Source: an uncultured Oscillospiraceae bacterium
Lineage (GTDB): Bacteria > Bacillota > Clostridia > Oscillospirales > Oscillospiraceae
DNA: 37,810 bases
Direction of reading: 5' to 3'
Assembly (NCBI GenBank): GCA_905234855.1
Contig: CAJOIU010000014.1
Span: 1 to 37,810 of the forward strand
Positions 14,457-37,774 of the stretch are shown piece by piece (position 1 is the first letter of the stretch; every line of letters starts with the position of its first letter). Under the pieces are notes generated by a model that saw only the letters and a program-made list of their open reading frames with translations, searched no databases and had not been told where the DNA came from. A program made the translations under genes and the position numbers.

Positions 14457-15335
14457 ATGAAAAAGCTATCCAAGATCCTTGCGCTGCTCGTTGCGCTGTG
14501 CATGATCCTCGCCATCGGCGCTTTCGCGTCCGGCGAGCCGTCCGACGCCTCGGGCGAGCCTGCGGCTGCCGGCGGCAAGTCCGTGGAGGAGGCCTATGTG
14601 GAGTATATCCACGAGTGGCTGCTCAATGAGCTGACGGTGAACAGCACCATGACCATCGAGCAGGTGGAGGACGAGTTCATGCCCGCCGTGGAGGAAGGCC
14701 GGTATGACGAGTTCCCCGCCGATATGCTGTATAACGGCATGCTGAACTCCGGCGTCGCCATGACGTTTGAGGAATTTGCGGCGCAGTATGTTCCCGAGGG
14801 CGACGCTTCCGGCGAAGCCTCCGACGCCTCCGGCGAGGCCATGTCCGTGGAGGATGCCTATGTGGAATATATCCACGAGTTCCTGCTCAATGAACTGACG
14901 GTGAACACCGGCGGCATGACCATCGAGATCATCGAGGACGAGTTCATGCCCGCGGTGGAGGAAGGCCGTTATAATGACTTCCCCGCTGACATGCTCTACA
15001 GCGGCATGCTGGATTCCGGCGTGGCCATGACCTTTGAGGAATTTGCCGCCCAGTATGTCCCCGCCGCGGCGGCTCCCGCTGCGGGCGGCTACACCGCCGA
15101 TGAGGCGGGCTATAAGGCCTATCTGAAGGATTGGGTCGCGGCGAACCCCGCCGTGCAGGCGAACATCGACGAGTTCAACGCGGGCATCGACGCGGGCGCT
15201 TACAATGAGTTCCCGATGGAGATGTGCTTCACCGATCAGTGGTTCGGCTTTGCCGCCTTGACCCTTGACCAGTTCCTCGCCGCGGGCGGCGTTGCGGAGA
15301 TCCCTGCCTTCGATCCGAACCTCGCCCCCGACTGA
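14457..15335 (+). CDS. Secreted protein made of three tandem helical modules
   Basis: This 292-residue protein has a signal peptide (MKKLSKILALLVALCMILA, probable cut after AFA) and a mature start SGEPSDASGEP. It then holds three copies of one module: residues about 42-113, 130-202 and 211-292. The first two are nearly identical (AYVEYIHEWLLNELTVN, DEFMPAVEEGRY, FPADMLYNGML, MTFEEFAAQYVP). The third is divergent and ends in VAEIPAFDPNLAPD. The third copy closely resembles the C-terminus of the beta-helix protein at 31236 (YKAYLKDWV against WKAYLKEYV; EIPAFDPNL in both). No known domain was recognised. No membrane anchor or LPXTG is present. The module's role is unknown; a binding or anchoring part shared within the family is plausible. 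Confidence 0.85.
   Translation: MKKLSKILALLVALCMILAIGAFASGEPSDASGEPAAAGGKSVEEAYVEYIHEWLLNELTVNSTMTIEQVEDEFMPAVEEGRYDEFPADMLYNGMLNSGVAMTFEEFAAQYVPEGDASGEASDASGEAMSVEDAYVEYIHEFLLNELTVNTGGMTIEIIEDEFMPAVEEGRYNDFPADMLYSGMLDSGVAMTFEEFAAQYVPAAAAPAAGGYTADEAGYKAYLKDWVAANPAVQANIDEFNAGIDAGAYNEFPMEMCFTDQWFGFAALTLDQFLAAGGVAEIPAFDPNLAPD
14580..15335 (+). repeat. Three-copy intragenic module repeat
   Basis: Copy 1 is 14580-14795, copy 2 is 14844-15062 and copy 3 is about 15087-15335. Copies 1 and 2 are similar at DNA level as well as protein level, indicating a recent duplication, with a SGEASDASGEAM spacer between them. Confidence 0.8.
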
Positions 15336-15354
15336 TAATACCGCATAAGCACAG

Positions 15355-15390
15355 CAGCGCGGCCGGCTTTTATGGCCGCGCTGTTTTTTT
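15355..15390 (+). terminator. Rho-independent terminator
   Basis: CAGCGCGGCC (15355-15364) pairs with GGCCGCGCTG (15374-15383), followed by seven T. Confidence 0.85.
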
Positions 15391-15539
15391 CGGTGCATGG
15401 ACGCCGCCCCGCAAGGGCGTCAGCCGCAAAACGTCCCGATCCTTCAGCAGCGGTAATGGATGCTGATCGAGAAATATTTTGCGTCCGGCACCCTTACGGG
15501 ACTTCTGATTCTTTTTCCGTCTCTTTTTGCGTATTGTGC

Positions 15540-15568
15540 TTTACAAACAGCGCTGTTTATAATATTAT
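15540..15568 (+). promoter_or_regulatory. Promoter region of the first beta-helix gene
   Basis: The stretch is AT-rich with two possible readings: TTTACA (15540-15545)-17-TATTAT (15563-15568), or TTGTGC (15534-15539)-18-TATAAT (15558-15563). The rest of 15391-15633 shows a small GACGCC/GGCGTC hairpin near 15400 and no gene. Confidence 0.5.
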
Positions 15569-15633
15569 TAATGAGATGTAATCTTGTGAAACAAATCGCA
15601 CGACATCAAGATCAGAAAGGAAAGGTACAGCAC

Positions 15634-18249
15634 ATGAAGAAAACCGCAAGAATCCTTGCCCTTGCGCTGGCGCTCTGCTTCGTTCTGTCGCTGGGAGCTA
15701 TGGCCTCCGGCGAGCCGAGCGGACAGCCCAGCGGCGCGGCGGGCGGCTTCGCTCAGGTGGACGCCACCCATTGGGCGGGCAGCGCCGTCACCGTCGAGCG
15801 CGTGGAATACGCGCCCGAATTTGCCGATCAGGGCTATGTCGATTCCACCCTGTTCACCAGCGTATCGAAGATCGTCACCGACGCGGGCGAGATCGATGTG
15901 GACAGCACCGTCTATACCCCGATCCTCACCGTGGACGGTGTGCAGGTCGACCTCTATAACGCCGAGAACGTGAGCTTCACCGGCGATGTGGAGATTACCC
16001 TCGTCGAAAAGGGCGACTCGAACAACAATAAGGGCGCTCCCTTCGGTGCGGACAAGGCGCAGTCGAGCTTCGGCCCGTTCTACTACACCGCTGCGGCGTA
16101 TATCGCCGACGGGAAGTATGACACGGCCAAGTCCGTCGAGGCCGCCCAGATCAGCGGCTCGGTGACGGATACCGCGGCCGACGCCCTGCAGGTCGTGTCC
16201 GGCGGCGATTACTTCTCCGGCGTCTATATCAACAACTCCGATTATGCCATCAACGACGCGCAGATGAGCTTCACAGGCGCCTGCGGCGACGATTTCAACG
16301 GCTGGGGCGCGGGCATCGTGGTGCTGGGCGATTCGAATGTTGAGATCAACCGCAGCGTGATTTCCACGCAGGGCGTGCTGCGCTCGGGTCTGTTCACCTC
16401 CGGCAATGCCGTTGCCACGGTGAAGGATTCCGTCATCGTCTCCCGCAACGACGAGGACGCCATCCCCTATGACACCGAGGACAACTATGCCACTCCGATG
16501 ATGCAGCAATGCCCCTTCGGCCTTGGCATCCAAGGCAACATCCGCGCCAGCCTCGCCTGCGGCGCGGGCATGAACGTCTTTGAAAACTCCCTCGTCGCCT
16601 CCAACGGCTGGGCCGTCCTCTCCACCGACTCCGGACGCTCCGGCGCGGACGCGCTGATCGCGAATGCAATGGTCGCCGTCGTCGGCACGGTGGTGGACGC
16701 TGCCGATCCCTCCGCGGACTTCACCTATGAGGTGAACGGCGAGGATTACGGCGTGGCTGTCGGCCGCTACGGCGAGACCTCCGGCTATATCGCCTATGCC
16801 GACTCCGGCGTGAACGATTACGCCTATGGCTCCGCATGGTATTCCCCCGATTATCTGGGAATCATCACCACCGGCACCGTCACCATGGCGGAGGGCTCCT
16901 ACGGCTGGTCCGGCCGCATCGGCTTCATGAGCCATTCCGGCGGCGGCTCCTCGGGTCATGGCGGGCTGAATGTCTCCGACTCCAGCTTCGATATCCAAGA
17001 CGCCTTTGCCGTCACCCAGCTCTCCGGCACCTACAGCACCACCACGAACCTCGACAACGTGGATATCTCGCTGGCCGGAAACGGCGCGGATATCCTTTAT
17101 ATCCAGCTCAACTCCGACGATAACGCCGGCGGCCCGGGCAATACCTCGAACACCATCACCGATCTGACGTACGACGAGTACCTCACCACCGCCGCCGCCT
17201 CCGGCGAGCCCACCGAGAACTTCAGCGAGCTGAACGTGTCGAACTCCGTCGTGCAGGGCAACATCTACAATGCCGCCTCCGACGACGGCGTGGGTCTTGT
17301 CGTGACGCTCGACAACGCCGAGATCGACGGCGAGATCTCCTCCGCATGGACACGCCATGTGGATGCCGCGGGCAATGACCTTGCCTCCACTACCATCGAC
17401 TGCGACTACTACACCGGCACCCGCGACGGCGCGAACGGCGTGTATGACTACACCATGTATCTGCGCGTGAAGGCCGAGGCCGCGCCCACCGTCAATAACC
17501 CCGTGACCCTCGTCATGCGAAACGGCGCGAAGTGGATGGTCACCGACACGAACTATCTCGCCTCCCTCACCATCGACGAGACCTCCAGCATCATGGGCAT
17601 GAACCTTGTCATGACCGTGAACGGCGTGGAGACCGCCATCGAGCCGGGCACCTATACCGGCGAGATCGTCCTCACCGCCGGAGCCGCGCCCGCCCGTCCC
17701 GAGGGCGACGCGGAGATCAAGGCCCCCGTCATCGGCGAGGCCGCCCAGATCGCCGCCGCCTCCGCCGAGGCAGCCCCCGCCTTCGAGGCAACGAACACCT
17801 ACGAGCCTTTTGACGTCGCCGTGGACGACGGCATGGTGCTTCCCTTCTCCAGTGTGGAGCTGGCCGTGACGGATACCACCGCCGCCATCTATATCCCCGA
17901 TACCGCCAAGCTCATCGAGTGCGAGATCGTGAACGGCGAATGGGTCATGGAGGGCTCCGATTTCGTGGACGACGCCATCATCGCCGCTGCGAAAGCGCTT
18001 TATGAGGGCGACGGCGCCGCCGATCCCGCTGCCTCCGGCGAGGCCGCCGGGGAGAGTAAGTGGGACGCTTGGATCGACTACCTGAAGGCGTTCGTGGAGG
18101 ACGGCAGCATCGACGATATCAAGGACATGGTCCTTGCCGAGCTTGACGCCGCGCAGGAGGCTGACTATCCCGGTATGCTCGACGGCACCGTCTTCGGCGT
18201 GTTCGCGTTTACCTACGACGCGACCCCCTATGAGGATTTCGAGGGCTGA
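15634..18249 (+). CDS. Secreted beta-helix protein with C-terminal helical module
   Basis: I chose the ATG at 15634 because it follows AAAGGAAAGG and opens a clean signal peptide (KKTARILALALALCFVL, cut after AMA); the frame is open back to 15460. The mature 850-residue protein begins SGEPSGQPSG. Its body is a series of short beta strands with Asn/Gly/Ser turns (for example GVYINNSDYAIN, NVEINRSVIST, AVATVKDSVIVS), the pattern of a right-handed parallel beta-helix. The end of the helix carries VTLVMRNGAKWMVTDTNYLASL, a motif echoed in the proteins at 31236 and 36098. The last 64 residues (about 808-871, WDAWIDYLKAFVEDG...) are a divergent form of the helical module seen at 14457. No catalytic residues of polysaccharide lyases were recognised. 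Adhesin-like or carbohydrate-binding role is inferred from fold only. Confidence 0.8.
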   Translation: MKKTARILALALALCFVLSLGAMASGEPSGQPSGAAGGFAQVDATHWAGSAVTVERVEYAPEFADQGYVDSTLFTSVSKIVTDAGEIDVDSTVYTPILTVDGVQVDLYNAENVSFTGDVEITLVEKGDSNNNKGAPFGADKAQSSFGPFYYTAAAYIADGKYDTAKSVEAAQISGSVTDTAADALQVVSGGDYFSGVYINNSDYAINDAQMSFTGACGDDFNGWGAGIVVLGDSNVEINRSVISTQGVLRSGLFTSGNAVATVKDSVIVSRNDEDAIPYDTEDNYATPMMQQCPFGLGIQGNIRASLACGAGMNVFENSLVASNGWAVLSTDSGRSGADALIANAMVAVVGTVVDAADPSADFTYEVNGEDYGVAVGRYGETSGYIAYADSGVNDYAYGSAWYSPDYLGIITTGTVTMAEGSYGWSGRIGFMSHSGGGSSGHGGLNVSDSSFDIQDAFAVTQLSGTYSTTTNLDNVDISLAGNGADILYIQLNSDDNAGGPGNTSNTITDLTYDEYLTTAAASGEPTENFSELNVSNSVVQGNIYNAASDDGVGLVVTLDNAEIDGEISSAWTRHVDAAGNDLASTTIDCDYYTGTRDGANGVYDYTMYLRVKAEAAPTVNNPVTLVMRNGAKWMVTDTNYLASLTIDETSSIMGMNLVMTVNGVETAIEPGTYTGEIVLTAGAAPARPEGDAEIKAPVIGEAAQIAAASAEAAPAFEATNTYEPFDVAVDDGMVLPFSSVELAVTDTTAAIYIPDTAKLIECEIVNGEWVMEGSDFVDDAIIAAAKALYEGDGAADPAASGEAAGESKWDAWIDYLKAFVEDGSIDDIKDMVLAELDAAQEADYPGMLDGTVFGVFAFTYDATPYEDFEG

Positions 18250-18421: not shown

Positions 18422-18742
18422 TCAGCCCGTGAGCCAGCGGACAAGCTCCTCGGGGGAGGTGAACAGGGGGATGGTATGGACGCGGTCGCCGCGGGCGGGG
18501 AGCAGACCGTCTTCCGGGAGCAGACCGTCTGCCTCGGCCTCCTTTTCGCGGATGGGCTTGTCGGAATAGAAATGCCCGAGGCGGATATGCTCCAGCTCAT
18601 GCCGGAGCGCCGCCTCCTGCGTGCTTTCCGGGTACAGCGTGTTGAGATAGATGTCAAAGCTGCCGTCGTCGTTCGGGAACGTGGCGGCCTTTACGCTGCG
18701 GTTCGGAAAATCGAGGCGGCGGATATAGTATTCAGCCTCCAT
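18422..18742 (-). CDS. ImmA/IrrE-type metallopeptidase
   Basis: This 106-residue protein carries the zinc motif HExxH in LRHELEHIRLGHF, with a downstream KEAEAD segment as probable third ligand. ImmA-type proteases cleave the XRE repressor encoded beside them and so derepress the element on damage or signalling. It is short for the family (often about 150 residues), with little after the active-site helix, so it may be a minimal form. Its start overlaps the repressor gene by 11 bases, indicating co-expression from the repressor promoter. Confidence 0.85.
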   Translation of the reverse strand: MEAEYYIRRLDFPNRSVKAATFPNDDGSFDIYLNTLYPESTQEAALRHELEHIRLGHFYSDKPIREKEAEADGLLPEDGLLPARGDRVHTIPLFTSPEELVRWLTG

Positions 18743-19106
18743 GGCTGCGCAGGGCGGTGAAGAAATCCATGACCGCCTTCACGTCCTCGGGCTTTGCGCC
18801 GTCCACGCTCTTGAGAAGCGCGCGCACCTCCGGCCGTGTTTCCAGCATCTCCAGATAGCGGTCGAGCTCATCGTCCGGCTCGTCCGGCTCCATGCGGTCG
18901 CTCTCGCCGGTGAGCCAGCGCAGGTTCACGTTGAGATACCGCGCCATCTCCCGCAGCACAGGCAGCTTCGGCTTCTGGATGAAGCCGGATTCATACCGCT
19001 GGATGGTGGACTTGTTCAGCCCCACGCTGGCGGCAACGTCGTCCAAGGTTTTTCCCCGCAGCTTGCGGGCGCTTTTGAGCCGCGCGGACATCAGCGCAAG
19101 ATCCAT
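18732..19106 (-). CDS. XRE-family (Cro/CI-type) repressor
   Basis: The 124-residue protein opens with a classical helix-turn-helix (about residues 5-65: LKSARKLRGKTLDDVAASVGLNKSTIQRYESG, key turn ASVGLNKSTIQRYE), followed by an acidic linker (EPDEPDDELD) and a helical C-terminal segment. It is expected to hold the prophage late operon silent and to regulate itself through the TTGC-N5-GCAA sites just upstream. AGGGAGG precedes the ATG. Coupled to immA downstream, as in ICEBs1-type immunity modules. Confidence 0.9.
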   Translation of the reverse strand: MDLALMSARLKSARKLRGKTLDDVAASVGLNKSTIQRYESGFIQKPKLPVLREMARYLNVNLRWLTGESDRMEPDEPDDELDRYLEMLETRPEVRALLKSVDGAKPEDVKAVMDFFTALRSHGG

Positions 19107-19130
19107 AAAAATACCTCCCTGCCGGTCGTG

Positions 19131-19159
19131 CGGCGCGTCCTCGGGGCGCGCCGTTTTTT
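19131..19159 (+). terminator. Hairpin with T tract, antisense in the repressor leader
   Basis: CGGCGCG (19131-19137) pairs with CGCGCCG (19147-19153), followed by TTTTTT on the plus strand. On the plus strand it could block antisense transcription coming out of immA/repressor; on the minus strand it forms a structured leader of about 80 bases before the repressor ATG. Confidence 0.5.
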
Positions 19160-19193
19160 GTCGCTATACGTCTCCCTTTTACCCTCTGCCGTG

Positions 19194-19278
19194 ATTGTAT
19201 CATAAAAAATTGCGAAAAGCAAGAAAAACTATTGCAAATTTTATTTCACTGTGCTAGTAATGATATTGCAAAAAGCAA
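19194..19278. promoter_or_regulatory. Divergent prophage promoters with repressor operators
   Basis: Minus-strand promoter: TTGCTT (19222-19217), 17 bases, TACAAT (19199-19194). Plus-strand promoter: TTGCAA (19232-19237), 17 bases, TAGTAA (19255-19260). Two near-identical inverted repeats TTGC-N5-GCAA lie at 19210-19222 (over the minus -35) and 19266-19278 (just past the plus -10); a half site TTGCAA overlaps the plus -35. The arrangement is that of a lysogeny switch where the XRE protein binds to both sides. Confidence 0.7.
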
Positions 19279-19292
19279 CGAGGAGAATAGTC

Positions 19293-19472
19293 ATGCGAGA
19301 TAAATGCAACAAATGTATCTATTCCTGCCCGGTGGACGTGGGGGAGGAAAACGAGATGATGCGCGCCTGCGTATACATTTTGGTGAAATACGAACGGCGC
19401 CCGTGTCCGGCGGGCGCGGGCTGCACGGTCTATGAGCCGCGCCGCAGGGGGGAGCGCAGCAAATGGCTGTGA
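19293..19472 (+). CDS. Small cysteine-rich phage protein
   Basis: The 59 residues contain CNKCIYSC near the start and further cysteines at CVYILVKYERRPCPAGAGC, suggesting a small zinc-binding fold. AGGAG lies 8 bases before the ATG at 19293. It is the first gene after the plus-strand promoter and overlaps terL by 10 bases. Function unknown; no small terminase is otherwise visible, but nothing here resembles one. Confidence 0.7.
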   Translation: MRDKCNKCIYSCPVDVGEENEMMRACVYILVKYERRPCPAGAGCTVYEPRRRGERSKWL

Positions 19473-21145
19473 GCGCCCGCCGGTTCATCGAGAAGAATTT
19501 GTATATCCGCACGAAGGACGCAAAGATCATCCCGCTGAAGCTCAATCCCGCGCAGGTGCGGCTGTATAACGCGCTGGAGGCGCAGCGCAAGGCGAAAAAG
19601 CCCATGCGCGTCATCATCCTCAAGGCGCGGCAGCTCGGCTTTTCCACGCTGGCGGAGGCGCTCATCTTCCAGCGTACGGCGACGAAGCCGAACGTGAACT
19701 CCCTCATTGTGGCACATCGGGAGGATTCGACGGCGAATCTATTCAAAATGTCGAAGCTTTTTTTCGAGCAGATGCCGGACGAGCTGCGCCCCATGCATAA
19801 AAATTCCAACGCCCGGGAGCTGGTGTTTGAAAACCCGGAGCGCGATCCGGAGAAAAAGGCGCGCGATCCCGGCCTCATGAGCCGCATCCGCTGCAACACA
19901 GCGGGGGGCGGAGGCGTCGGCCGCAGCGACACGATCCATAACGTCCACGCCTCGGAATTTGCCTTCTGGGGCGGCGACAAGACGGCGACATGGATCGGCA
20001 TCCTGCAGGCCGTGCCGTCCACGCCGGATACGATGGTCATCGTGGAAAGCACCGCGAACGGCTTCGACGAGTTCCATCGCCTGTGGGAGGCGGCGGTGCG
20101 GGGGGAATCGGATTTCGAGCCGCTGTTTTTCCCGTGGTTCGAAAACCCCGCCTACCGCCGCAGGGTCCCGCCGAAAACGGAATGGACGGCGGAGGAGCGG
20201 CAGCTCGCGGAGCAATACGGCCTCGACGACGAGCAGCTTATGTGGCGGCGCTGGTGCATCCGCAACAACTGCGCCGGGGACGAGCGCATTTTCCGGCAGG
20301 AGTATCCCTCCTGCCCGGACGAGGCCTTCCTCACCACCGGCCAGAGCGTGTTCGACAACGACAAGGCCGCCCAGCGGCGGCGGGAGGCGATCTGTCCCGT
20401 CATGCGCGGCTGCTTCGAATACGACGCGGACGACGACCCGACCCGCATCCGCCATATCCGATGGACGGAGCGGCCGGACGGCATCATCCGCATCTATGAG
20501 CCGCCCCAGCCGCGGCGGCATTACGTCCTCGGCGGCGATACCGCCGGCACCGGCTCCGACTGGTTCACCGGGCAGGTGATCGACAACCTCACCGGGCGGC
20601 AGGCCGCCGTTCTGAAGCACCAGTACGACGAGGATCAGTACGCGCGGCAGATGTACTGTCTCGGCCGGTATTACAACGACGCCCTCATCGGCGTCGAGAC
20701 GAACTATTCCACCTATCCTGTCAAAATGCTCTCCCTCATGGGGTATCCCCGCCTGTATGTGAGAGAGCTTCCCGATACCTTCAGCGGCGGCGTCCGCGAG
20801 GCCTTCGGCTTCGAGACGACCAGCCGGACAAGGCCGGTCATCATCGCCCAGCTCGTGGCGTCCTTCCGGGAGCACCCGGAGATCGTTTCCGACGCGGACA
20901 CGCTGGGCGAAATGATGACCTTTCAATACAACCGGGAGCGTCGGCCCGAGGCCATTCCGGGGGAGCATGACGACCTCGTGATGGCGCTGGCCATCGCCCA
21001 CGGCATACGCACCCAGCAGGAGGTCCTTGACGAGCCGGAGCCGTCCGCAAGGCGGTTCTGGACAAAGGACATGCTGGAGGACTATGCCCGGGCGGATGAG
21101 GAGGGACGGCGCGTCCTGACAGGCCTGTGGGGAAGGCCAAAATGA
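19463..21145 (+). CDS. terL: Phage terminase large subunit
   Basis: This 560-residue packaging motor has an N-terminal ATPase and a C-terminal RNase H-like nuclease. The Walker A-like loop is LKARQLGFST (about 53-62), Walker B is MVIVES (191-196) followed by the T-A-N-G coupling motif. Nuclease residues: Asp359 in GGDTAGTG, Glu412 in VETNYS, and Asp503/Asp504 in EHDDLVMALA. All look intact, so the protein could be active. GGGGGGAG precedes the ATG, which overlaps the upstream Cys-rich gene (ATGGCTGTGA). Confidence 0.95.
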   Translation: MAVSARRFIEKNLYIRTKDAKIIPLKLNPAQVRLYNALEAQRKAKKPMRVIILKARQLGFSTLAEALIFQRTATKPNVNSLIVAHREDSTANLFKMSKLFFEQMPDELRPMHKNSNARELVFENPERDPEKKARDPGLMSRIRCNTAGGGGVGRSDTIHNVHASEFAFWGGDKTATWIGILQAVPSTPDTMVIVESTANGFDEFHRLWEAAVRGESDFEPLFFPWFENPAYRRRVPPKTEWTAEERQLAEQYGLDDEQLMWRRWCIRNNCAGDERIFRQEYPSCPDEAFLTTGQSVFDNDKAAQRRREAICPVMRGCFEYDADDDPTRIRHIRWTERPDGIIRIYEPPQPRRHYVLGGDTAGTGSDWFTGQVIDNLTGRQAAVLKHQYDEDQYARQMYCLGRYYNDALIGVETNYSTYPVKMLSLMGYPRLYVRELPDTFSGGVREAFGFETTSRTRPVIIAQLVASFREHPEIVSDADTLGEMMTFQYNRERRPEAIPGEHDDLVMALAIAHGIRTQQEVLDEPEPSARRFWTKDMLEDYARADEEGRRVLTGLWGRPK

Positions 21146-21159
21146 AGGGAGGTGAGGAT

Positions 21160-21294
21160 ATGGAAAAGAGCCGCGGCTATGAGCAGGGCATCCGCAATAC
21201 CGGCGCGCAGGAGGTTTGCGCGCTGCGGAAGAACGCGCCCGTCAAGAAGGGTCATGCCGCCCGGGGAAAAGACCTGCGGAGCGGCAAGCGCTGA
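21160..21294 (+). CDS. Small basic phage protein (44 aa)
   Basis: The ATG at 21160 follows GGGAGGTGAGG and opens a 44-residue frame rich in Lys/Arg (ending KGHAARGKDLRSGKR), with one Cys. It sits between terL and the scaffold-like gene with normal spacing, so it is probably real. Function unknown; nucleic-acid binding is only suggested by charge. Confidence 0.6.
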   Translation: MEKSRGYEQGIRNTGAQEVCALRKNAPVKKGHAARGKDLRSGKR

Positions 21295-21327
21295 TACGGC
21301 TTCGCGCAGAAAACGAGAGGAGACATT

Positions 21328-21975
21328 ATGGAAGAGAACAAAGCCGCTATGAGCGGCACAGGCGAAAAAGCGCCGGAGGTCGCCGCCCCGGTCAACGAGG
21401 AGAAGCATTCGGAGACGGCGGCTCCGCAGAATGACCGCCGAAGCGACAGCGCCCGCGCCGAAGACGGGCGATACGCCGCCGCCCGCCGCAGGGCGGAGGC
21501 GGAACGGGATCAGGCCATCGAGCAGATGGATCGGCTCGTGAAGGCGGAACGCGGCCGTCTGGCCGGAGAACAGGAGCGGACGCGGCAGGAGCGGATGCGC
21601 ATCGTGGCGGACGATCAGGTGCGCGAGATCTCCCGTCTGGACGGGGAGATCCAAAGCATCGACGATCTTTTGGCGATGCCGGAATACGAGGAGTTTTACG
21701 AGCTGGTGAAGCGCGGCGTCAGTATGGTGCAGGCCTACAAGCTCACGCGCTATGACCGGCTGATGCAGCGTGCCTCGGAGGCCGCCGCGCGGCAGACCGT
21801 CCGCAGCCTCGGCTCGCGTCAGCATCTGGCCGCGCTGGCCGGTCAGCCGGGCATGGGCGAATATGTGTCCGTTCCGGCGGAGGTCGCCGCCGAATACCGT
21901 CTCGCGAAGCCGGGCATCACCGATGCCGAGATCCGGCGGAAATACCGCAAATACAAGAAATATCAAAGACAGTAA
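21328..21975 (+). CDS. Scaffold-like coiled-coil protein
   Basis: This 215-residue protein is highly charged. Residues about 45-110 form a long Arg/Glu/Gln-rich coiled coil (ARRRAEAERDQAIEQMD, ERTRQERMR), and the C-terminus is basic (RRKYRKYKKYQRQ). Its place right before the decoration and capsid genes and its composition fit a head scaffolding protein, with the basic tail contacting capsid protein. This is inferred from position and composition, not from a recognised family. GAGAGGAG precedes the ATG. Confidence 0.65.
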   Translation: MEENKAAMSGTGEKAPEVAAPVNEEKHSETAAPQNDRRSDSARAEDGRYAAARRRAEAERDQAIEQMDRLVKAERGRLAGEQERTRQERMRIVADDQVREISRLDGEIQSIDDLLAMPEYEEFYELVKRGVSMVQAYKLTRYDRLMQRASEAAARQTVRSLGSRQHLAALAGQPGMGEYVSVPAEVAAEYRLAKPGITDAEIRRKYRKYKKYQRQ

Positions 21976-21993
21976 CAAAGGAGTGTTTCAACT

Positions 21994-22380
21994 ATGGCAT
22001 TTACCCCCTATTCCTATGAGAGCGGCCAGCCCTCGCCCTTCGCGTATCTGAAGGCCTCCGCGGGCACCTATTCCATCGGCCTGTGCGCCGCGCTCTCGGA
22101 CGGCACCGCGGCGAAATCCGTGAATCCGGATTACGTCATTATGAGCGACGCCGGCACCGTGGCGGCCGGAACGGTGCTTCCGGCGATCCATATCACGGAC
22201 GATGTGATCTTCGAGGCGCCGCTGGCCGAGGCCTCGTCCGCCCTGAAGCCCGGCAGCCTCGTGGACGTGGCGGCGGACGGGCTTTCTATCGCCAATACCG
22301 CAACGAACAAAAATGTTCAGATCATCGACATGAACGGCACCGCCGCCGGTGATCTTTGCCGCTGCCGCTTTGTCGGCTGA
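21994..22380 (+). CDS. Head decoration/stabilising-like protein
   Basis: The 128 residues are Ala/Gly/Ser/Thr-rich with a beta pattern (GTVLPAIHITDDVIFEAPLAE, GSLVDVAADGLSIANTA). Small proteins of this type immediately before the major capsid gene are commonly capsid decoration or stabilising proteins. AAAGGAG precedes the ATG; the major capsid ATG follows 20 bases after the stop. Confidence 0.55.
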   Translation: MAFTPYSYESGQPSPFAYLKASAGTYSIGLCAALSDGTAAKSVNPDYVIMSDAGTVAAGTVLPAIHITDDVIFEAPLAEASSALKPGSLVDVAADGLSIANTATNKNVQIIDMNGTAAGDLCRCRFVG

Positions 22381-22400
22381 GAAAAGGAGGAGTACACACT

Positions 22401-23402
22401 ATGGCTAATATCGTGATCGCGGAGGGCTCCGGCCGTCTTGATACCCTGTACGGCAAGTATCAGGCCCCCATCGCAAGCTGCATCGAGGACGTGACCGAGG
22501 CTTGGAAGGCCAAGGAGATCGGCCCCAAGATCTTCCGTCAGGTAAAGAGCGACAACTGGGCCGAGGCCTTCACCAGCGTGACCGCCGCCTCCGACTGGCA
22601 GGTCGTGGGCGAAAACGGCGCCCACCCGACGAACGGCTTTGAGGAGGGCTATCCGAAGACCATCGTCAATCAGGTCTGGAAGAGCCAGATCGCCATCTCC
22701 CGCGAGATGAGCGACGACAACAAGATCAGCGAGATGACCAAGCGCGCCACCAAGCTGACAGATTCCTTCTACCGCACGAGAGAGCGCTTTTTCGCGAACC
22801 TGCTGGGCACTGCCAGCACCGGCGTGACCGGCGTCACCCTGAACGGCTTTTCCTTCGACTGCGCCAGCGCGGACGGTCAGTGCCTGTTTTCCACCGCGCA
22901 TCCCGCCAAGGTCTCCGGCAGCGCCCAGACGAACAAGTATGCCGACGCCTTCTCCGAGACCGCTCTCGGCGCGGCCATGACCGCCATGCAGAACTTCAAG
23001 GGCGATAACGGCGAGACCCTCGGCCTCGAGCCGGACACCATCATCATCCCGAACATCGCCTCTCTCAAGAAGAGCGTGTTCTCCGTCCTCGGCTCCTACG
23101 AGATGCCCGGCACGGCGAACAACGATTTCAACTATCTCTTCGGCTCCATGCGCGTACTGGTATGGCCGTATCTGAACGACTATATCGGCAGCACCAACGT
23201 AGCGCCGTGGTTCCTCATGGACAGCTCCTACAACGAGCAGTGCGACGGCGCCGTATGGCTCGACCGCGTGGACTGCGAGATCACGAGCCGCCTCGGCGCG
23301 AACGACGAGAACATCTGGGACGGCTACGCCCGCCTTTCCGCCGGCTTCGTTGACTGGCGGTTCATTCTGGGCGGCGGCCTGAGCGGCGGCAGCGACCTGT
23401 AA
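22401..23402 (+). CDS. Major capsid protein
   Basis: The 333-residue protein has the pattern of an HK97-type or Mu gpT-like capsid subunit: TEAWKAKEIGPKIFRQV, VVNQVW-like segment (TIVNQVWKSQIAISREMSDD), the YRTRERFFANLLGTA helix, a CLFSTAHPAK loop and LEPDTIIIPNIASLKKSVFSVL in the core domain. I chose the ATG at 22401 because AAAAGGAGG lies 8 bases upstream; the frame is open further back without a ribosome site. There is no long N-terminal delta domain, in line with a separate scaffold gene upstream. Confidence 0.85.
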   Translation: MANIVIAEGSGRLDTLYGKYQAPIASCIEDVTEAWKAKEIGPKIFRQVKSDNWAEAFTSVTAASDWQVVGENGAHPTNGFEEGYPKTIVNQVWKSQIAISREMSDDNKISEMTKRATKLTDSFYRTRERFFANLLGTASTGVTGVTLNGFSFDCASADGQCLFSTAHPAKVSGSAQTNKYADAFSETALGAAMTAMQNFKGDNGETLGLEPDTIIIPNIASLKKSVFSVLGSYEMPGTANNDFNYLFGSMRVLVWPYLNDYIGSTNVAPWFLMDSSYNEQCDGAVWLDRVDCEITSRLGANDENIWDGYARLSAGFVDWRFILGGGLSGGSDL

Positions 23403-23427
23403 GACGGCGCGGCTGCCCCTGTGATAA

Positions 23428-23533: not shown

Positions 23534-23579
23534 GGGACGGGCTGCCGCCGAAGAGTGCTTCCGAGGAAAGGAGAAATGC

Positions 23580-26119: not shown

Positions 26120-26133
26120 AAAGGAGGCGGCGC

Positions 26134-27285: not shown

Positions 27286-27312
27286 ACCAAAGAAAGACAA
27301 GGAGGACGAAGG

Positions 27313-27513: not shown

Positions 27514-27516
27514 GCG

Positions 27517-29528: not shown

Positions 29529-29532
29529 CGGG

Positions 29533-29700
29533 ATGGCAGACCGGCTGTTTGGCACGGAAAGCTCCTTCCCGGGCTTCACCGGCGAGGAGACGCAGGAGGA
29601 GAAGATCGAGCGCATCCTCGATTACCTGTACCAGATCAACGAACAGTATCGATATATATTATGTCAACTAAACTACGGTGTGGAGGAGGACGCGGAGTGA
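29533..29700 (+). CDS. Small conserved-type phage protein (55 aa)
   Basis: The ATG at 29533 starts 5 bases after the previous stop, and TGA lies at 29698-29700. The helical core KIERILDYLYQINEQYRYIL resembles small proteins found near tail genes of many gut Clostridia phages. Codons 37-47 (CAG TAT CGA TAT ATA TTA TGT CAA CTA AAC) are AT-rich and rare in this window, and coincide with the dif-like stretch. Function unknown. Confidence 0.65.
   Translation: MADRLFGTESSFPGFTGEETQEEKIERILDYLYQINEQYRYILCQLNYGVEEDAE
29642..29669 (+). other. dif-like (Xer site) sequence, right half well matched
   Basis: TATATA (29653-29658) followed by TTATGTCAACT (29659-29669) differs at one base from the central region plus XerD arm of the Bacillus subtilis dif site (TTATGTAAACT). 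The left (XerC) arm AACAGTATCGA (29642-29652) matches poorly. The stretch is embedded in a coding sequence. Functional status is unproven. Confidence 0.4.
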
Positions 29701-29728
29701 CGCGCCTCCTCCCGGAAAGGGAAATACG

Positions 29729-31060
29729 GTGGCAAAACGAACGTATACCTACGAGGATTTTCTGCAAAGCGCGCGGAAGGCGGGGCTGCTTGCCCAGTTT
29801 TCCGAGGGCGATCTTCGCCTCGCGCAGCAGAATCCCGACGCGGGCATGAGCCTGCTTACCTACAAGCGCGACTATCGTAACGCCTCCACAGACGAGGCGC
29901 GCGCCTTGGCAAACGCCGGAGCCGAGCGCATCCGCTCCGTTTACGGAGGCTATACCGCCGGGGCGGACGGCTCGGGCTTTTATCTGAACGAATCGGAAGG
30001 CGACAAGGATCGGTATGTCAACCAATTCGCCGACGAGCAGCGGGCGCTGATCGACCGACTCTCGACGCCGTTTTCCTATGATTCGGACGGCGACGCGGCG
30101 TGGCAGAGCTATCGCAAGGCGTATATCCGCGAGGGACGGCGCGCCTATGAGGACAGCCTCGGCACAGCGGCGGCAAACACGGGCGGTGTGGCCTCCACCG
30201 CTGCGGTCACGGCGGCGCAGCAGGCGCTGAACTACTATAACGCGCAGGCGGCGGACAAAAAGGCCGCCCTGCAGCAGCAGGCCTATCAGAACTGGCTGGC
30301 CGAGCGGGCGCAGACGGTTTCGGAGCTGGAAGCCTACGACCGGCTGGATCAGACCGCCGCGGCGCAGTATCAATGGGCGCAGGACGCGGCGGCGGCACAG
30401 GCGCGCTGGGAAAGCGAGGCGGCGACCTCGCAGATGCGCTGGGAAAGCGAGGCTGCGGCCGCACAGGCGCGCTGGGAGAGCGAAGCGGCGGAGACGCGCT
30501 ACCGCTGGGAGCAGGAGATGGCAGCCGCGGCCACCAAGGCCGACCGGGAGGCGGCGACCGCCGCGGCGGCGGCGGAGGCGGCGGCCGAGCAGCAGCGCTT
30601 CGATAATGCCATGGCGGTATGGAAGACCTACGGCTATGTTACGCCCGGGATCGCGGAGATCCTTTCGCTCCCCGCGGGGACGGCCTATTCCGAGCAGGCG
30701 TACAACGCATGGCGTCAGCGCTTCGAGGAGGCGACGAACGGCGTATATACCGGCATGACGATGGGCGATACGGTGAATGCCGTCATCGGCGAGGAGGCGG
30801 GAAGCTACAACCCCGCCGCGGGGGACAGCCCCTCCCGCCATGGACGTGTCTCGCAGGGCAGCTCCGGCTCCGATGTGCTGACGATGCAGACGTATCTCAT
30901 CGCGTTGGGCTACCATTGCGGGGACGCCGGGGCGGACGGCATCTTCGGCTCCGCCACCCGCGCCGCCGTGCGGGCGTTCCAGTCTGACCACGGGCTGGCG
31001 GTGGACGGCGTATGCGGCCCAAAAACTTGGTACGCGCTGATCGCCGCGCTGAACGGATAA
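29729..31060 (+). CDS. Coiled-coil phage protein with C-terminal peptidoglycan-binding domain
   Basis: Start GTG at 29729, after GAAAGGG; 443 residues. The N-terminal part includes YEDFLQSARKAGLLAQFSE and IRSVYGGYTAGADGSGFY. The middle is an Ala/Gln-rich coiled coil with a 12-residue repeat of the type QARWESEAA (four copies, about 225-275). The C-terminus (about 380-443) is a PG_binding_1 domain (VLTMQTYLIALGYHCG, ADGIFGSATRAAVRAFQ, VDGVCGPKTWYAL). No lytic motif is seen. It may be an ejection or tail-tip protein that contacts the cell wall. It is the last gene of the late operon. Confidence 0.7.
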   Translation: MAKRTYTYEDFLQSARKAGLLAQFSEGDLRLAQQNPDAGMSLLTYKRDYRNASTDEARALANAGAERIRSVYGGYTAGADGSGFYLNESEGDKDRYVNQFADEQRALIDRLSTPFSYDSDGDAAWQSYRKAYIREGRRAYEDSLGTAAANTGGVASTAAVTAAQQALNYYNAQAADKKAALQQQAYQNWLAERAQTVSELEAYDRLDQTAAAQYQWAQDAAAAQARWESEAATSQMRWESEAAAAQARWESEAAETRYRWEQEMAAAATKADREAATAAAAAEAAAEQQRFDNAMAVWKTYGYVTPGIAEILSLPAGTAYSEQAYNAWRQRFEEATNGVYTGMTMGDTVNAVIGEEAGSYNPAAGDSPSRHGRVSQGSSGSDVLTMQTYLIALGYHCGDAGADGIFGSATRAAVRAFQSDHGLAVDGVCGPKTWYALIAALNG

Positions 31061-31235: not shown

Positions 31236-33503
31236 ATGAAAAAAGCATCCCGTATCCTTGCGGTGCTGATGGCTATGGCTATGCTCCTGAGCCTGAGCGC
31301 ATTCGCAAGCGGCGATCCCTCCGGCGCTCCCGCACAGGAAGAGTATGTTGCCATTGAAAGCATCGGCGACATGACCGTCTCTTCCTATGCCACGCTGGAC
31401 GCGGTCGCCACCCGCAGTCAGGACAAGGGCTTCATCTATCTCGGCTACGACGTCGTTGACGGCGCGCTGACCGATGAGTCCAACTGGACCGGCGATATTT
31501 CCGATATCCAGCTCAACAACGCCGTTACCGGCGCCGGCTTCACCGCCGTCCGCGCCTCCGGCGAGATGTCCGACGTCACCGTGAACGGCGGCACCCTCGT
31601 TCTCACGAACGGCGCCGACGATTCGCAGGGCGAGCATGCCTCCGACTTCACCGGCATGGGCGCCGCCTTCGTCTCGTATGACGACGCGAAGCTCACCGTG
31701 AAGGATGTGGACGTGACCACCGACGGCTTCGTCCGCGCGGGCGTCATCGTCGATCAGGGCGCTGTCGCTTGGATCGAGGACAGCTCCTTCGTCACCTACG
31801 GCGCGAACCCCCTCACCGAGGCTTACGAGGGCTATGTGAACTCCGCCACCACCAGCAAGATGCTCTCTCCCCCTTGGGTTCTGGGCATTCAGGGCGGCAT
31901 CCGCACCGTCAACGTGCTTGACACGAAGGCCACCTTCGTTCTCGTGAACTCCAGCATGGCCTCCGGCGGCTGGGGCGTCATCTCCACCGACGGCTGCACC
32001 ACCCCCACCCTCATCATCATCGACTCCGATCTCCGCATCCTCTCCGCGGCGGAGGGCGGCATGGATTCCGGCGCGGCGCTCTACGGCGCGGATTACGCCA
32101 ACTACGGCTCCGGCTACGGCGCTTACCTCATCGGCACCTGCGACGAGCAGTATTACGGCTCCAAGGTCTCCGGCGCTACCTTCGGCGCCATCGCCCGCGA
32201 GGGTTATGCCACCTATCAGTCCTCCAACGGCGATATCGAGGTCGTCTCCGCCAAGGGCGAGAGCCTCGGCACCGTCAAGGGTCAGGGCAATGTCTCCGAG
32301 ATCGACACCGTCATCGGCGTCATGACCCACTCTTCCGAGTCTGTCGGCCTCACCTACACCGACGGCACGATCATCAACACCCTCGCCGAGACCGTTCTCT
32401 ACCGCTCCTCCGGCCACGCCGATTTCGTCTTCGATAACGCGGTCGTGAACCCCGGCAACGGCATCATTGGCCAGATGATCGACGACGACGACTCCACCGT
32501 CGGCATGGGCGACTTCTCCACCATGGGCTTCAATACTGCCCTCATCGAGGCCGCGGGCATGCCCAGCCAGAACGGCAATGAGACCGGCGCCACCGCCAAC
32601 TGCGAGGAAGCCAACTTCGTATTCGCCAATGGCGATTACGCAGGTGACCTCTACAACGGCACCGGCTACTACGGCCAGGCCGGCGACGTGATGAACGTCA
32701 CCGTCGGCGAGAACGCGACCCTCACCGGCGCCATCGCCCTGACCGAGACCTTCCACGGCGTTCCCTATTCCGCCGAGGCCAAGGCGTTTGCTGACGCGGC
32801 CGAGGGCGTCGAGTATGTCTTCATCGACAAGGACTTCAACGTGACCGCGAACGAGGCCGACGCTGCCTACATCCAGTTCACGCAGTTCACCATCGACCAG
32901 TACTACATGCTCTGCCGTCTGCTGAACCATGTTTATTCGAACGGCTATTCCGCCGTCAATGTCACCGTTGAGAAGGACGGCGTCTGGACCGTCGCCGGCG
33001 AGAGCCTCATCAGCTACCTCAAGGTCGAGGGTACTGTTTACGGTGCGCTCACCGAGAACGCTGACGGCACGCTGAGCCTCGCTCCCGCCGCCACCGCCAT
33101 TCCCGCCGGCGAGTACGGCACGGCCGTTGAGGCCAATGTCGCCGCTGCCATGGGCATGGGCAACGCCGGCGGCTCCGGCGAGCCCTCCGGCATTACCACC
33201 AACAACACCGCCTCCGACGAGCCCTCCGAGGAGCCTGCCGCCGCGCCCGCCGCGGGCGGCGATGTCTCCAAGGACGCTTGGAAGGCCTATCTGAAGGAAT
33301 ATGTCTCCGCGGTCCCCGCCGCGCAGGAGCATCTGGATGAGTTCTTCGCGGCCATCGACGCCGAGGCCTTTGACGTCATGCCCGGCGATATGCTCTTCCA
33401 AGATACGTTCTGGGGCTATTCCGCCATGTCGTTTGACGATTTTGTAGCCGCGGGCGGCGCGTATGAGATCCCCGCCTTCGATCCGAACCTCGTCGCCGAC
33501 TGA
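31236..33503 (+). CDS. Secreted beta-helix protein with C-terminal helical module
   Basis: The ATG at 31236 opens a signal peptide (KKASRILAVLMAMAMLL, cut after AFA) and a mature start SGDPSGAP; GGAGG lies 9 bases upstream. The 755-residue protein has a beta-helix pattern (MSDVTVNGGTLVLTNG, AKLTVKDVDVTTDG, AWIEDSSFVTYG, NVTVGENATLTGAI) and the VTVEKDGVWTVAGESLISYL end motif shared with the proteins at 15634 and 36098. After an Ala/Gly/Pro linker with SGEPSG, residues 678-755 are the helical module, strikingly like the third module of the protein at 14457 (ending EIPAFDPNL in both). No anchor motif, no lyase catalytic motif. Expression may be gated by the leader attenuator. Confidence 0.8.
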   Translation: MKKASRILAVLMAMAMLLSLSAFASGDPSGAPAQEEYVAIESIGDMTVSSYATLDAVATRSQDKGFIYLGYDVVDGALTDESNWTGDISDIQLNNAVTGAGFTAVRASGEMSDVTVNGGTLVLTNGADDSQGEHASDFTGMGAAFVSYDDAKLTVKDVDVTTDGFVRAGVIVDQGAVAWIEDSSFVTYGANPLTEAYEGYVNSATTSKMLSPPWVLGIQGGIRTVNVLDTKATFVLVNSSMASGGWGVISTDGCTTPTLIIIDSDLRILSAAEGGMDSGAALYGADYANYGSGYGAYLIGTCDEQYYGSKVSGATFGAIAREGYATYQSSNGDIEVVSAKGESLGTVKGQGNVSEIDTVIGVMTHSSESVGLTYTDGTIINTLAETVLYRSSGHADFVFDNAVVNPGNGIIGQMIDDDDSTVGMGDFSTMGFNTALIEAAGMPSQNGNETGATANCEEANFVFANGDYAGDLYNGTGYYGQAGDVMNVTVGENATLTGAIALTETFHGVPYSAEAKAFADAAEGVEYVFIDKDFNVTANEADAAYIQFTQFTIDQYYMLCRLLNHVYSNGYSAVNVTVEKDGVWTVAGESLISYLKVEGTVYGALTENADGTLSLAPAATAIPAGEYGTAVEANVAAAMGMGNAGGSGEPSGITTNNTASDEPSEEPAAAPAAGGDVSKDAWKAYLKEYVSAVPAAQEHLDEFFAAIDAEAFDVMPGDMLFQDTFWGYSAMSFDDFVAAGGAYEIPAFDPNLVAD

Positions 33504-35934: not shown

Positions 35935-35954
35935 CAACCGAATTAACCGTCACA

Positions 35955-35987
35955 GCAGAGGCCGTTCGAAGGCCTCTGCCGTTTTTT
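35955..35987 (+). terminator. Rho-independent terminator
   Basis: GCAGAGGCC (35955-35963) pairs with GGCCTCTGC (35971-35979), followed by CGTTTTTTG. Confidence 0.85.
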
Positions 35988-36020
35988 GAAAAATTTTTTG
36001 TCACCCCCCCTTTTTTGTCG

Positions 36021-36090
36021 CCGTCCTTCCGTATATATGCTCAGCAGGAAAAACAACACCAAAACTACTGACATACAGGAAAGGACGGTA
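36021..36090 (+). promoter_or_regulatory. Possible leader pairing that hides the ribosome site
   Basis: CCGTCCTTCC (36021-36030) is complementary, with one bulge, to GGAAAGGACGG (36078-36088), which contains the ribosome site of the gene at 36098. Both elements are followed by GTATATA. A -10-like TATATG lies at about 36033, so the first element could also be part of the promoter, in which case no hairpin would form in the mRNA. Confidence 0.35.
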
Positions 36091-36097
36091 TATATCC

Positions 36098-37774
36098 ATG
36101 AAACAGAAGCTTTCGACCCAGATCATCGGCGCGGCATTGGCCGTGATCTTTGCCGCAGGTCTCGGCACCGTGGCGCTGGCCTCCAGCGAACCCTCCGCCG
36201 AGCAGCAGCCCCCGCAGATCAGCGAGGAGATGGCGCAGAACGATCAGACGCCCCCGGAACTCCCGGACGGTCAGCAGCCCCCCGAAGCCCCCGACGGCGA
36301 GCAGCCGCCTGAAATGCCGGACGGTCAGCAGCCCGCCAGCGAGCCGGGCGCGAGCAATGAGCCGGGCGCGAGCAACGAGCCGGGCGCGAGCAATGAGCCG
36401 GGCACGAGCAATGAGCCGGGCGCGCAGCAGAACGACCCTGACGGTCGGCAGGAGCGGGGCGGCATCCGCGGGGTGCTGGAGGATCTGATCCAGCGGCTGA
36501 TGAGCCTTCTCGGCATCGGACAGAAGGATGCGGGGCAGCCCGCGTCCCAGCCGGAGCAGAACGCCGCGCCCGCGCAGAGCGGACAGAGCGCTCCCTCCGG
36601 GGAGATGGGCGGCGAAGCCCAAAGCGCTCCCTCCGGGGAAATGAGCGCCTCGGGTGAGATGGGCGGCTCCGGCGAGATGGGAGGCGCGTCCGGCGAGGCG
36701 GTCGCCTATGCCGCGGCCAACACCGTGACGGAGAGCGCCTCGGGCGCGTCCTATACCTCCCGGAACGGAGATGAGAACGCCGTCCTTGTCAGCGGCTCCG
36801 ACGTGACCCTCACCGGCATCACCGTATCGAAGACCGGCGATACCTCCGGCGAGAGCGCCGATTTCTACGGCGTGAACGCGGGCGTTCTGGCCGCGAACGG
36901 CGCGACGCTCACCATCGAGGAAGCGGAGATCATCACCGACGGCGCCCACGCGAACGGCGTCTTCAGCTACGGCAGCGGCACGGTGCTGAACATCTCCGAT
37001 TCCACCGTCACCACCAGCGCCAATAATTCCGGCGGCATCATGACCACCGGCGGCGCGACCCTGAACGCCTCGAACCTCACCGTCAGCACCTCCGGAAGCT
37101 CCTCCGCGGCGATCCGCTCCGACCGGGGCGGCGGCACCGTGACCGTGAGCGAGGGCAGCTATGCCTCCAGCGGCGTCGGCTCCCCGGCGATCTATTCCAC
37201 CGCGGATATCAGCGTATCGGACGCCGTGCTGACTTCTGCCGCCTCCGAGGCGGTGGTCATCGAGGGCGGCAACTGCGTGACGCTCGTGAACGACACCGTT
37301 TCCGGCAACAACAGCAAGCTGAACGGTCAGTCCACCGTGAAGACCAACGTCCTCATTTACCAGTCCATGTCCGGCGACGCGGCGGAGGGCAATTCGACCT
37401 TCACCATGACCGGCGGCAGCATGACGGCGGGGACGGGCGCGATGTTCCATGTGACGAACGTCACCACCGAGATCAATCTCTCCGGCGTGGACTTCACCTA
37501 TGCTTCCGACAGCGACGTGTTCCTCGACGCCTCCGCCGACGCGTGGGGCACGGCGGGCAGAAACGGCGGCAACGTCACCCTGAACCTCGACGATCAGGAT
37601 ATCGTCGGCGTTATCACCGCGGACAGCGTCTCAAGCGTCTCGGTGTACATGACAAACGGCTCCACATGGACGCTCACCGGCGATTCCTATGTCACCGGCC
37701 TCAGCGGCGACACCTCCGGCATCGATCTGAACGGTTATACCCTCTATGTGAACGGCACGGCTTGGAACGGCTGA
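36098..37774 (+). CDS. Secreted low-complexity plus beta-helix protein
   Basis: This 558-residue protein has a signal peptide (KQKLSTQIIGAALAVIFAAG, cut after ALA) and mature start SSEPSAEQQPP. Residues about 30-125 are Pro/Gln/Glu-rich with PDGQQPPE repeats and four to five EPGASN units. A short amphipathic segment (GGIRGVLEDLIQRLMSLLGIG) follows, then SGEM/GGSGEM repeats, then a beta-helix (about 215-540) with regular turns (NAVLVSGSDVTLTGITVSKTG, ATLTIEEAEIITDG, TVLNISDSTVTTSANNSGG). It ends with VSVYMTNGSTWTLTGDSYVTGL, the cap-like motif shared with the other beta-helix proteins, but lacks the helical module. It is the fourth member of the local secreted family. The window ends 36 bases after the stop. 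Confidence 0.8.
   Translation: MKQKLSTQIIGAALAVIFAAGLGTVALASSEPSAEQQPPQISEEMAQNDQTPPELPDGQQPPEAPDGEQPPEMPDGQQPASEPGASNEPGASNEPGASNEPGTSNEPGAQQNDPDGRQERGGIRGVLEDLIQRLMSLLGIGQKDAGQPASQPEQNAAPAQSGQSAPSGEMGGEAQSAPSGEMSASGEMGGSGEMGGASGEAVAYAAANTVTESASGASYTSRNGDENAVLVSGSDVTLTGITVSKTGDTSGESADFYGVNAGVLAANGATLTIEEAEIITDGAHANGVFSYGSGTVLNISDSTVTTSANNSGGIMTTGGATLNASNLTVSTSGSSSAAIRSDRGGGTVTVSEGSYASSGVGSPAIYSTADISVSDAVLTSAASEAVVIEGGNCVTLVNDTVSGNNSKLNGQSTVKTNVLIYQSMSGDAAEGNSTFTMTGGSMTAGTGAMFHVTNVTTEINLSGVDFTYASDSDVFLDASADAWGTAGRNGGNVTLNLDDQDIVGVITADSVSSVSVYMTNGSTWTLTGDSYVTGLSGDTSGIDLNGYTLYVNGTAWNG
36341..36424 (+). repeat. 18-bp tandem repeat coding EPGASN
   Basis: Four full copies plus a partial of GAGCCGGGCGCGAGCAAT (36341-36358, 36359-36376, 36377-36394, 36395-36412, partial from 36413) differ at only one base each. 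Near-identity suggests copy-number change by slippage. Confidence 0.85.

Follow-up and report, generated by a model that had tools for sequence, protein, structure and literature searches.

Do the secreted beta-helix proteins encoded on one contig of an uncultured Oscillospiraceae bacterium belong to a surface assembly, and if so, what joins them? We addressed this question with contig CAJOIU010000014.1 of assembly GCA_905234855.1 (1.79 Mb, 82.6% complete), which was analyzed over its whole length of 37.8 kb and is referred to below as the window. An earlier note, made from the letters of the window, had drawn attention to four secreted proteins with a similar mature start. Three were predicted to be beta-helices with a common end motif, two of these were said to end in a mobile helical module, and the fourth was described as three copies of that module and as a possible connector. 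Here, we describe the module as a domain family that occurs in several architectures, is swapped among beta-helix proteins, is under strong purifying selection, and has a restricted distribution among the genomes sampled. The set is not the four window proteins that had been outlined; it is genome-wide and extends beyond the window. We propose that the module is a docking part for the cell surface, a reading that we hold to be evenly balanced between right and wrong.

A helical module on secreted proteins

The triple-module protein is encoded at 14457..15335 on the plus strand, as are the other window features located below unless stated otherwise. Based on its translation, an own-genome search, and AlphaFold2, it is a secreted protein of 292 amino acids with a signal peptide, an SGEPS linker, three helical modules, and an EIPAFDPNL end. 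Modules 1 (14574..14798) and 2 (14838..15065) belong to class A of the module tree described below, and module 3 (15090..15332), which ends in EIPAFDPNLAPD, belongs to class B. The three copies matched the module profile A1 with E values of 3.1e-31, 8.0e-30, and 1.5e-23 (the last over 15090-15299), all three being included in A1. In a leave-out test, each target was scored with profiles built from modules that shared less than 60% identity with it, and the scores were compared with those of 200 shuffles of that target. Modules 1 to 3 scored 79.1, 79.6, and 56.1 bits versus 8.9, 13.9, and 9.1 bits for the best shuffles, which bears out the description of this protein as three module copies. The C-terminal module of the beta-helix protein at 31236 (33258..33500; class B, ending in EIPAFDPNLVAD; A1 E = 3.5e-23 over 33258-33467, the copy being part of A1) scored 53.3 versus 10.7 bits. 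The copy at the end of the beta-helix-type protein at 15634 (18046..18246; E = 1.3e-17 with a profile of which it is part) is divergent and weaker, at 19.0 bits versus a maximum of 10.1 bits among all 200 shuffles. Of the two beta-helix proteins said to end in the module, that at 31236 is thus secure, and that at 15634 has the fainter copy.

Fourteen copies from this genome contribute to A1, of which seven are strong (53 to 82 bits), three are middling (19 to 21 bits), and four are weak (11 to 14 bits, all above their shuffles). The weak ones, namely the first module of a protein on contig C12 and the ends of proteins on C13, C19, and C11, are tentative assignments, and since A1 includes them, its match counts are upper-side counts. 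The proteins at 14457 and 31236 are 55% identical where they align (E = 8.7e-23), and their nearly identical termini were seen as reported. Among the loci examined, EIP[AE]FDP[NS]L forms the C-terminal end of 12 distinct proteins and is internal in none, and a sister group of modules (loci L158, L215, L216, and L218 to L221) has other ends.

The module is about 75 residues long and is predicted to contain about four helices. In the AlphaFold2 model of the mature 14457 protein (32 homologous rows), the predicted local confidence (pLDDT) was mostly above 90 for module 1, mostly 76 to 93 for module 3, and about 60 to 80 for module 2, which had few alignment rows. The two linkers fell below 50 and the predicted TM-score (pTM) was 0.39, suggesting beads on a string. 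Class A modules are very acidic, with 21% D+E and 1.4% K+R.

Had the module been an already characterized domain, the proposal would have lost its footing, and we found no sign of this in the libraries searched. The module was not named by Pfam, NCBIfam, or PHROGs in the four window proteins, by Pfam in 28 helix proteins, by NCBIfam in 18 helix proteins, or by Pfam in ten further secreted proteins. It had no match among PDB sequences, and the best Foldseek match had an E value of 5.5, although the entire three-module chain served as the query, and this may mask a match to a single module.

Variable beta-helices behind a constant module

The protein at 31236..33503 was the one beta-helix protein modeled (AlphaFold2 pLDDT 76.8, pTM 0.74). 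It is predicted to comprise a right-handed beta-helix (model residues 44 to 605; 31434..33119), a linker with pLDDT below 50 (residues 612 to 651; 33138..33257), and the helical module from residue 656. Foldseek returned pertactin (1dab, E = 1.7e-4) as the sole match below 0.001 for the helix, with polysaccharide lyases and hydrolases weaker and at low TM-score. Because lyases and glycosidases are among its structural neighbors, and because each of four polar residues (R200, D229, H342, and D396, numbered as in the model) is retained by 27 of 28 helices, the beta-helices could be polysaccharide-active enzymes and the module a cellulosome-like docking part. We consider this improbable. Query-normalized TM-scores did not exceed 0.28 in the 50 matches listed of 252, the best match is itself an adhesin, and Pfam assigned no family, catalytic or other, to the 28 helix proteins at E 0.01, although an enzyme without a Pfam family is possible.

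About 21 proteins of the beta-helix type are spread over 14 contigs of the genome, and one of them (on C7) is interrupted by a stretch of N. Eighteen of them make up alignment A2, whose profile matches the protein at 15634..18249 with an E value of 6.5e-180, this protein being one of its rows. The third predicted beta-helix, at 36098..37774, carries no module, had no Pfam match, and appears from homologue and profile comparison to represent a separate, widespread subfamily. All 14 of its examined homologues in other genera matched at 37 to 54% identity. Since a profile of 14 other helices matched it weakly (41.2 bits, bias 14.7) and did not match the proteins on C13 (25743), C11, and C18 at all, we place only about 17 of the roughly 21 proteins in the main helix family. 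Of the three predicted beta-helices, that of 31236 is supported by modeling; a single family holds for about 17 proteins, and 36098 is a different type. Among the 394 genomes sampled from the order, 18 besides its own contained relatives of the latter (no more than three candidates were scored per genome), and several of the 14 homologues have lipobox-like starts, as judged by eye.

The common end motif is real, with W kept in 17 and V in 16 of the 18 aligned paralogues. The shared mature start was also confirmed, reading SGEPS in the proteins at 14457 and 15634, SGDPS at 31236, and SSEPS at 36098 (signal peptides judged by eye), and it is not special to these four. In the aligned paralogues, the first S is kept in 18 of 18, G in 14, E in 15, and the last S in 14. 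Because the start is present in many paralogues and also on some unrelated secreted proteins of this genome, it looks like a linker of the lineage rather than a mark of the group. The secreted beta-helices of this genome are strongly acidic, and K+R amounts to 3.4% in 18 helices versus 10.8% in 127 other genes, 8.2% in 39 membrane-like proteins, and 6.0% in 22 other secreted-like proteins. Loss of Lys and Arg as a defense against trypsin was considered and dropped; the 14 homologues of 36098 from other genera average 2.7% K+R, so this is no feature of the clade.

The module varies far less than the helices that carry it. We compared 47 helix-plus-module proteins in 1,081 pairs, taking open reading frames (ORFs) longer than 500 residues whose C-terminal module scored above 30 bits, and found a mean identity of 33% for helices and 54% for modules. 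Where helices were less than 25% identical (179 pairs), modules averaged 52%, and the module was more conserved than the helix in 97% of pairs. The extreme pair, L179 and L181 from one metagenome-assembled genome (MAG), combines helices that are 25% identical with modules that are 97% identical. Modules of Parasporobacterium also sit on beta-helices, and the best pairs between Oscillospiraceae and Parasporobacterium have 85% identity in the module and 29 to 30% in the helix.

Near-identity of this kind could have arisen if the module were a neutral C-terminal cassette, with at most a linker or stability function, that was spread by recent duplication or gene conversion. Swapping between related helices would agree with this, and one pair (L162 and L161; synonymous difference, pS, 0.17) could be a recent copy. 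We compared modules above 60 bits within each of seven MAGs (139 pairs). Among the 41 pairs with at least 80% amino acid identity, which include L162/L161, median pS was 0.43, and the median nonsynonymous difference (pN) was 0.057. Because synonymous sites have diverged while the protein has been held, the near-identity is mostly old and maintained by selection rather than by recent copying. Recent gene conversion is disfavored accordingly by the synonymous divergence, and the neutral cassette strikes us as very improbable.

Passengers and modules are combined in different ways even among close relatives. We compared 63 beta-helix ORFs (more than 450 amino acids, more than 120 bits, and without X). 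Of 126 helix pairs with at least 45% identity, 63 differ in module architecture (none, A, B, or tandem, with or without an N-terminal copy), although these pairs do not represent independent events, and a contig end (L196) or a frame break (L213) accounts for some of the differences. In the genome under study, genes on C2, C6, C13 (25743), and C24 reach a stop codon without a module, and relatives at 69 to 84% identity carry one. The clearest case is the orthologue of 31236 in L163, which is syntenic and, after one further helix gene, has the same downstream neighbors (dipicolinate synthase subunit B-like and DUF1015-like, matched by eye to named window genes). Identity per 50-residue block is 80 to 96% over residues 51 to 600 and then drops to 74, 44, and 31% in the last blocks, where class B is replaced by class A. 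Similarly, the helix of L196, 73% identical to that of 31236, is followed by A and then by an apparent start of B at the contig end (by eye), and the helices of L189 (Oscillospiraceae) and L217 (Parasporobacterium) are 63% identical and carry A and B, respectively. The mobility of the C-terminal module, claimed from two window proteins, is thereby strongly supported, and the sequence comparisons support the view of the module as an interchangeable and constrained adaptor.

Architectures and distribution of the module

About 12 proteins of this genome carry the module. Two are secreted strings of modules (14457 and C12:40986, the latter with an extra beta-type domain), and three are lipoprotein-like (two modules on C26 and one each on C21 and C3; lipobox-like starts were judged by eye and by a simple pattern). 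The lipoprotein-like carriers, which the earlier note had missed, bear on anchoring. Six helices have a C-terminal module, the copies on C11, C13, and C19 being tentative, and one helix (C31) has an N-terminal module.

A tree of 98 modules (midpoint rooted and read without supports) separates five classes. Class L contains lipoprotein-like proteins together with some helix N-termini, class N contains other helix N-termini, and class M comes first in strings with the beta-type domain. Most helix C-termini and strings carry class A, and class B forms the ends of strings and of some helices. Copies of classes A and B from strings nest among the helix C-terminal modules.

These positions bear on another explanation, in which the module acts as a signal for secretion or sorting. 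It would direct passengers to the envelope and might be processed, much like C-terminal sorting domains. Most copies are indeed C-terminal, and the ends MTFEEFAAQY or EIPAFDPNL recur across divergent cargo. A sorting domain of that kind would always be C-terminal, whereas 9 of the 98 copies are N-terminal in helix proteins and others lie in strings and lipoprotein-like proteins. Furthermore, close relatives of module-bearing helices exist without the module, and we give the sorting signal little credence.

Strings were found in 8 of the 10 module-bearing genomes of the genus. One of them, P0005, has 380 residues that comprise a beta-type domain and three modules. Its relatives are nearly full-length in G095, G152, G153, and G154, it also matches the C12 protein, and relatives in G155, G156, and G157 are 65 to 71% identical from residue 3 to about residue 295. 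The 14457 protein has its closest relative in L150/L171, a two-module protein that shares its terminus and whose gene likewise has a CarD-domain gene upstream.

Two other parts recur among these proteins. A beta-type domain with a YTVTVINGMDG-like start (L052:4987-6231, L071:3115-3957, and L184:5338-6477) is a second mobile part; it begins module strings, also occurs in a lipoprotein-like protein without modules, and had no Pfam assignment above the cutoff. A third shared part, EI.VDGVT-like and with a G.I..G.W-like end, was noticed by eye. It seems to lie at the end of a helix (L058:5948-8005), at the start of another (L225:172-2655), and in short lipoprotein-like proteins (L071:2449-2946 and L071:3115-3957).

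Searches for further carriers with the module profile were positive for 10 of the 35 genomes searched in the genus, with 12 to 22 matches each, and for three Parasporobacterium MAGs; the other 25 genomes of the genus had no match at E 0.001. With P0001 as the query in 150 genomes of the family, strong matches were confined to the own genome and one genome of the same genus. Six other family genomes matched weakly (E = 3e-4 to 9e-4), and because all of these alignments begin at query residues 1 to 4, we read them as probable matches to the signal peptide. Profile A1 matched no genome but its own in 394 genomes of the order or in 398 genomes of the phylum, both of which are even samples rather than whole groups. 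A scan of a contig collection by pattern and tblastn returned 65 loci in nine Oscillospiraceae MAGs (three named Red_deer) and the three Parasporobacterium MAGs (Lachnospiraceae by NCBI taxonomy), which come from the jejunum of sheep, goat, and roe deer and have 7, 7, and 4 module matches. The eight Parasporobacterium loci have a G+C content of about 50 to 54% and contain helix-plus-module genes among other genes, some cut at contig ends. Their assignment to Lachnospiraceae rests on record names and the different G+C content, and 299 sampled Lachnospiraceae genomes had no module match outside the Parasporobacterium genome at the center of that sample. A phage or plasmid origin of the module was rejected, with no relative among the viral contigs, phages, and plasmids searched. 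Beta-helix genes adjoin oxaloacetate decarboxylase-like genes (by eye) in both Oscillospiraceae (L149:3-4978) and Parasporobacterium (L217/L225), which may be chance.

Around the string in the window, nothing operon-like was found. A CarD-domain gene (13774..14322; PF02559) lies directly upstream, and another lies upstream of the two-module relative in L150 (E = 2.2e-8 and 5.3e-8 for the genes before 14457 and before that relative), but the next downstream gene differs. Consensus scans gave a putative sigma-70-like promoter 5' of the triple-module gene (14373..14401, TTGACG-17-TATACT) and a putative terminator-like stem-loop 3' of it (15353..15385). Between the two beta-helix genes at 15634 and 31236 lies a compact phage-like cassette (18422-31060), in which a minus-strand repressor-like gene is followed by genes that match a terminase, major head protein, portal, endolysin, and internal virion protein; among the 10 proteins compared with PHROGs, no integrase or tail gene was recognized. 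In L163, the 3.9 kb that precede the syntenic orthologue lack this cassette and contain an IS200-like transposase.

A proposed docking part and its known parallels

Since the module is near-constant, optional, movable, found at either end of proteins, and present in strings and on lipoprotein-like proteins, it behaves as a docking part would. We propose that it serves outside the cell as an interchangeable adaptor for docking, within a surface-display system specific to the lineage. The passengers would be diverse secreted beta-helices, each with a nearly constant adaptor that usually sits C-terminally behind a floppy acidic linker, and members of the same domain family would be displayed at the membrane by lipoprotein-like proteins. 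Secreted proteins that string together two or three adaptors, such as the 14457 protein, would add binding sites and could cross-link or compete. In this way, the surface might retain, exchange, or release passengers whose own sequence stays unchanged. We infer a surface location, a protein partner of the adaptor from the same system, and a connector role for the triple-module protein.

The main rival is a fixed non-protein ligand, which we regard as possible though rather unlikely. The ligand would be either a cell wall polymer, in the manner proposed for the C-terminal domain of methanogen adhesin-like proteins, or a host or plant glycan, in the manner of a carbohydrate-binding module. An invariant ligand would explain why many divergent passengers share a single strongly conserved domain, and tandem copies would raise avidity; classes A and B are alike on strings and other carriers, and by eye the helix ends of this genome have neither an LPXTG motif nor a membrane tail. 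Yet a wall anchor would be superfluous on lipoprotein-like carriers, which are already anchored. With nearly no basic residues, class A is also less likely to bind an anionic wall polymer unless through a metal ion, and no carbohydrate-binding family matched the module in the Pfam scans.

Several observations weigh against the docking adaptor itself. Classes A and B occur on strings and helices alike and are not complementary in the manner of cohesin and dockerin; this would fit self-association or a common receptor better. Simple self-association is in turn spoken against by the acidity of class A, and the monomer model of the 14457 protein gave no sign of packing between modules. The partner may be the module itself, the lipoprotein module, the wall, or a host glycan, all of which are candidates, and a surface location is suggested by signal peptides and the lipobox-like starts. 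The module is not essential, given that none was found in 21 of the 63 helix ORFs (a few of them cut or frame-broken). The stand-alone partner of the earlier note holds as an architecture in eight genomes, but in the other two (G150 and G151, 64% and 94% complete) and in the three Parasporobacterium MAGs, matches were helix-borne or partial and no string was found. Finally, among 53 pairs with helices at least 60% identical, the module was more conserved than the helix in only 28%, because close helix relatives are themselves conserved.

A bolder version of the docking adaptor is a self-assembling coat, in which the module would bind itself, three-module strings would network the beta-helix passengers, and di-module lipoproteins would tether them. 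Oscillospiraceae and Lachnospiraceae would trade passengers and adaptors and re-plug helices onto other adaptor classes. We regard this coat as doubtful.

If the docking adaptor is correct, a small domain absent from the searched libraries lets bacteria exchange the surface arm on a constant dock, with likely exchange between Oscillospiraceae and Lachnospiraceae. Uncultured gut bacteria would then offer a clear example of evolution in which the adaptor stays constant and the passenger varies, and the compact domain could be tried out as a docking tag. The helix genes, which make up about 2.4% of the assembly (summed ORF lengths) and are unnamed in the libraries, would gain testable roles.

Display through a shared adaptor is a known kind of system; in the literature and libraries searched, this adaptor and its swapping appear to be undescribed. 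Specifically, no description of the module or helix family was found in the open-license PMC literature. Pertactin-type autotransporter passengers (1dab) resemble the 31236 helix as its best structural match, but identity is 11%, TM-scores are 0.23 and 0.30, and no autotransporter barrel was seen. The Cthe_2159 family (PF14262) likewise consists of secreted Clostridia proteins, carbohydrate-binding by family name. A true member (L057:6487-7671, E = 5e-68) adjoins a beta-helix gene on contig C17; it was the sole PF14262 match in scans of 4, 10, 28, and 6 proteins, and none of the window proteins matched.

The nearest working model is the cellulosome, for which the account of Ruminococcus flavefaciens (PMC2930009) offers a small conserved module in classes, divergent secreted cargo, and multi-module scaffolds. 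It differs in that strings here share the module classes of the cargo and the cargo has no enzyme domain in Pfam. There was no dockerin match among the proteins scanned with Pfam (window, 28 helices, and ten secreted) and neither P0001 nor P0005 gave a match to cohesin, the rest of the genome not having been searched for cohesins.

The nearest parallel is found in the adhesin-like proteins of gut methanogens. Methanobrevibacter ruminantium encodes 105 of them, 44 of which share the conserved C-terminal domain M1-C, with weak homology to Big_1 and a proposed role in wall attachment (PMC2812497), and right-handed beta-helix domains occur in 28 proteins of M. smithii and 34 of M. stadtmanae (PMC11532034). 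Methanogens differ in being archaea and in having an M1-C domain related to Big_1, whereas the module described here is all-helical and no Big_1 match was obtained with Pfam in the 28 helix proteins. Strings, lipoprotein copies, and swapping are features of the present system that the sections of those two papers drawn on here do not mention. What the systems have in common is many large secreted proteins, beta-helices (about 21 helix-type proteins here, one of them modeled), and one conserved C-terminal domain.

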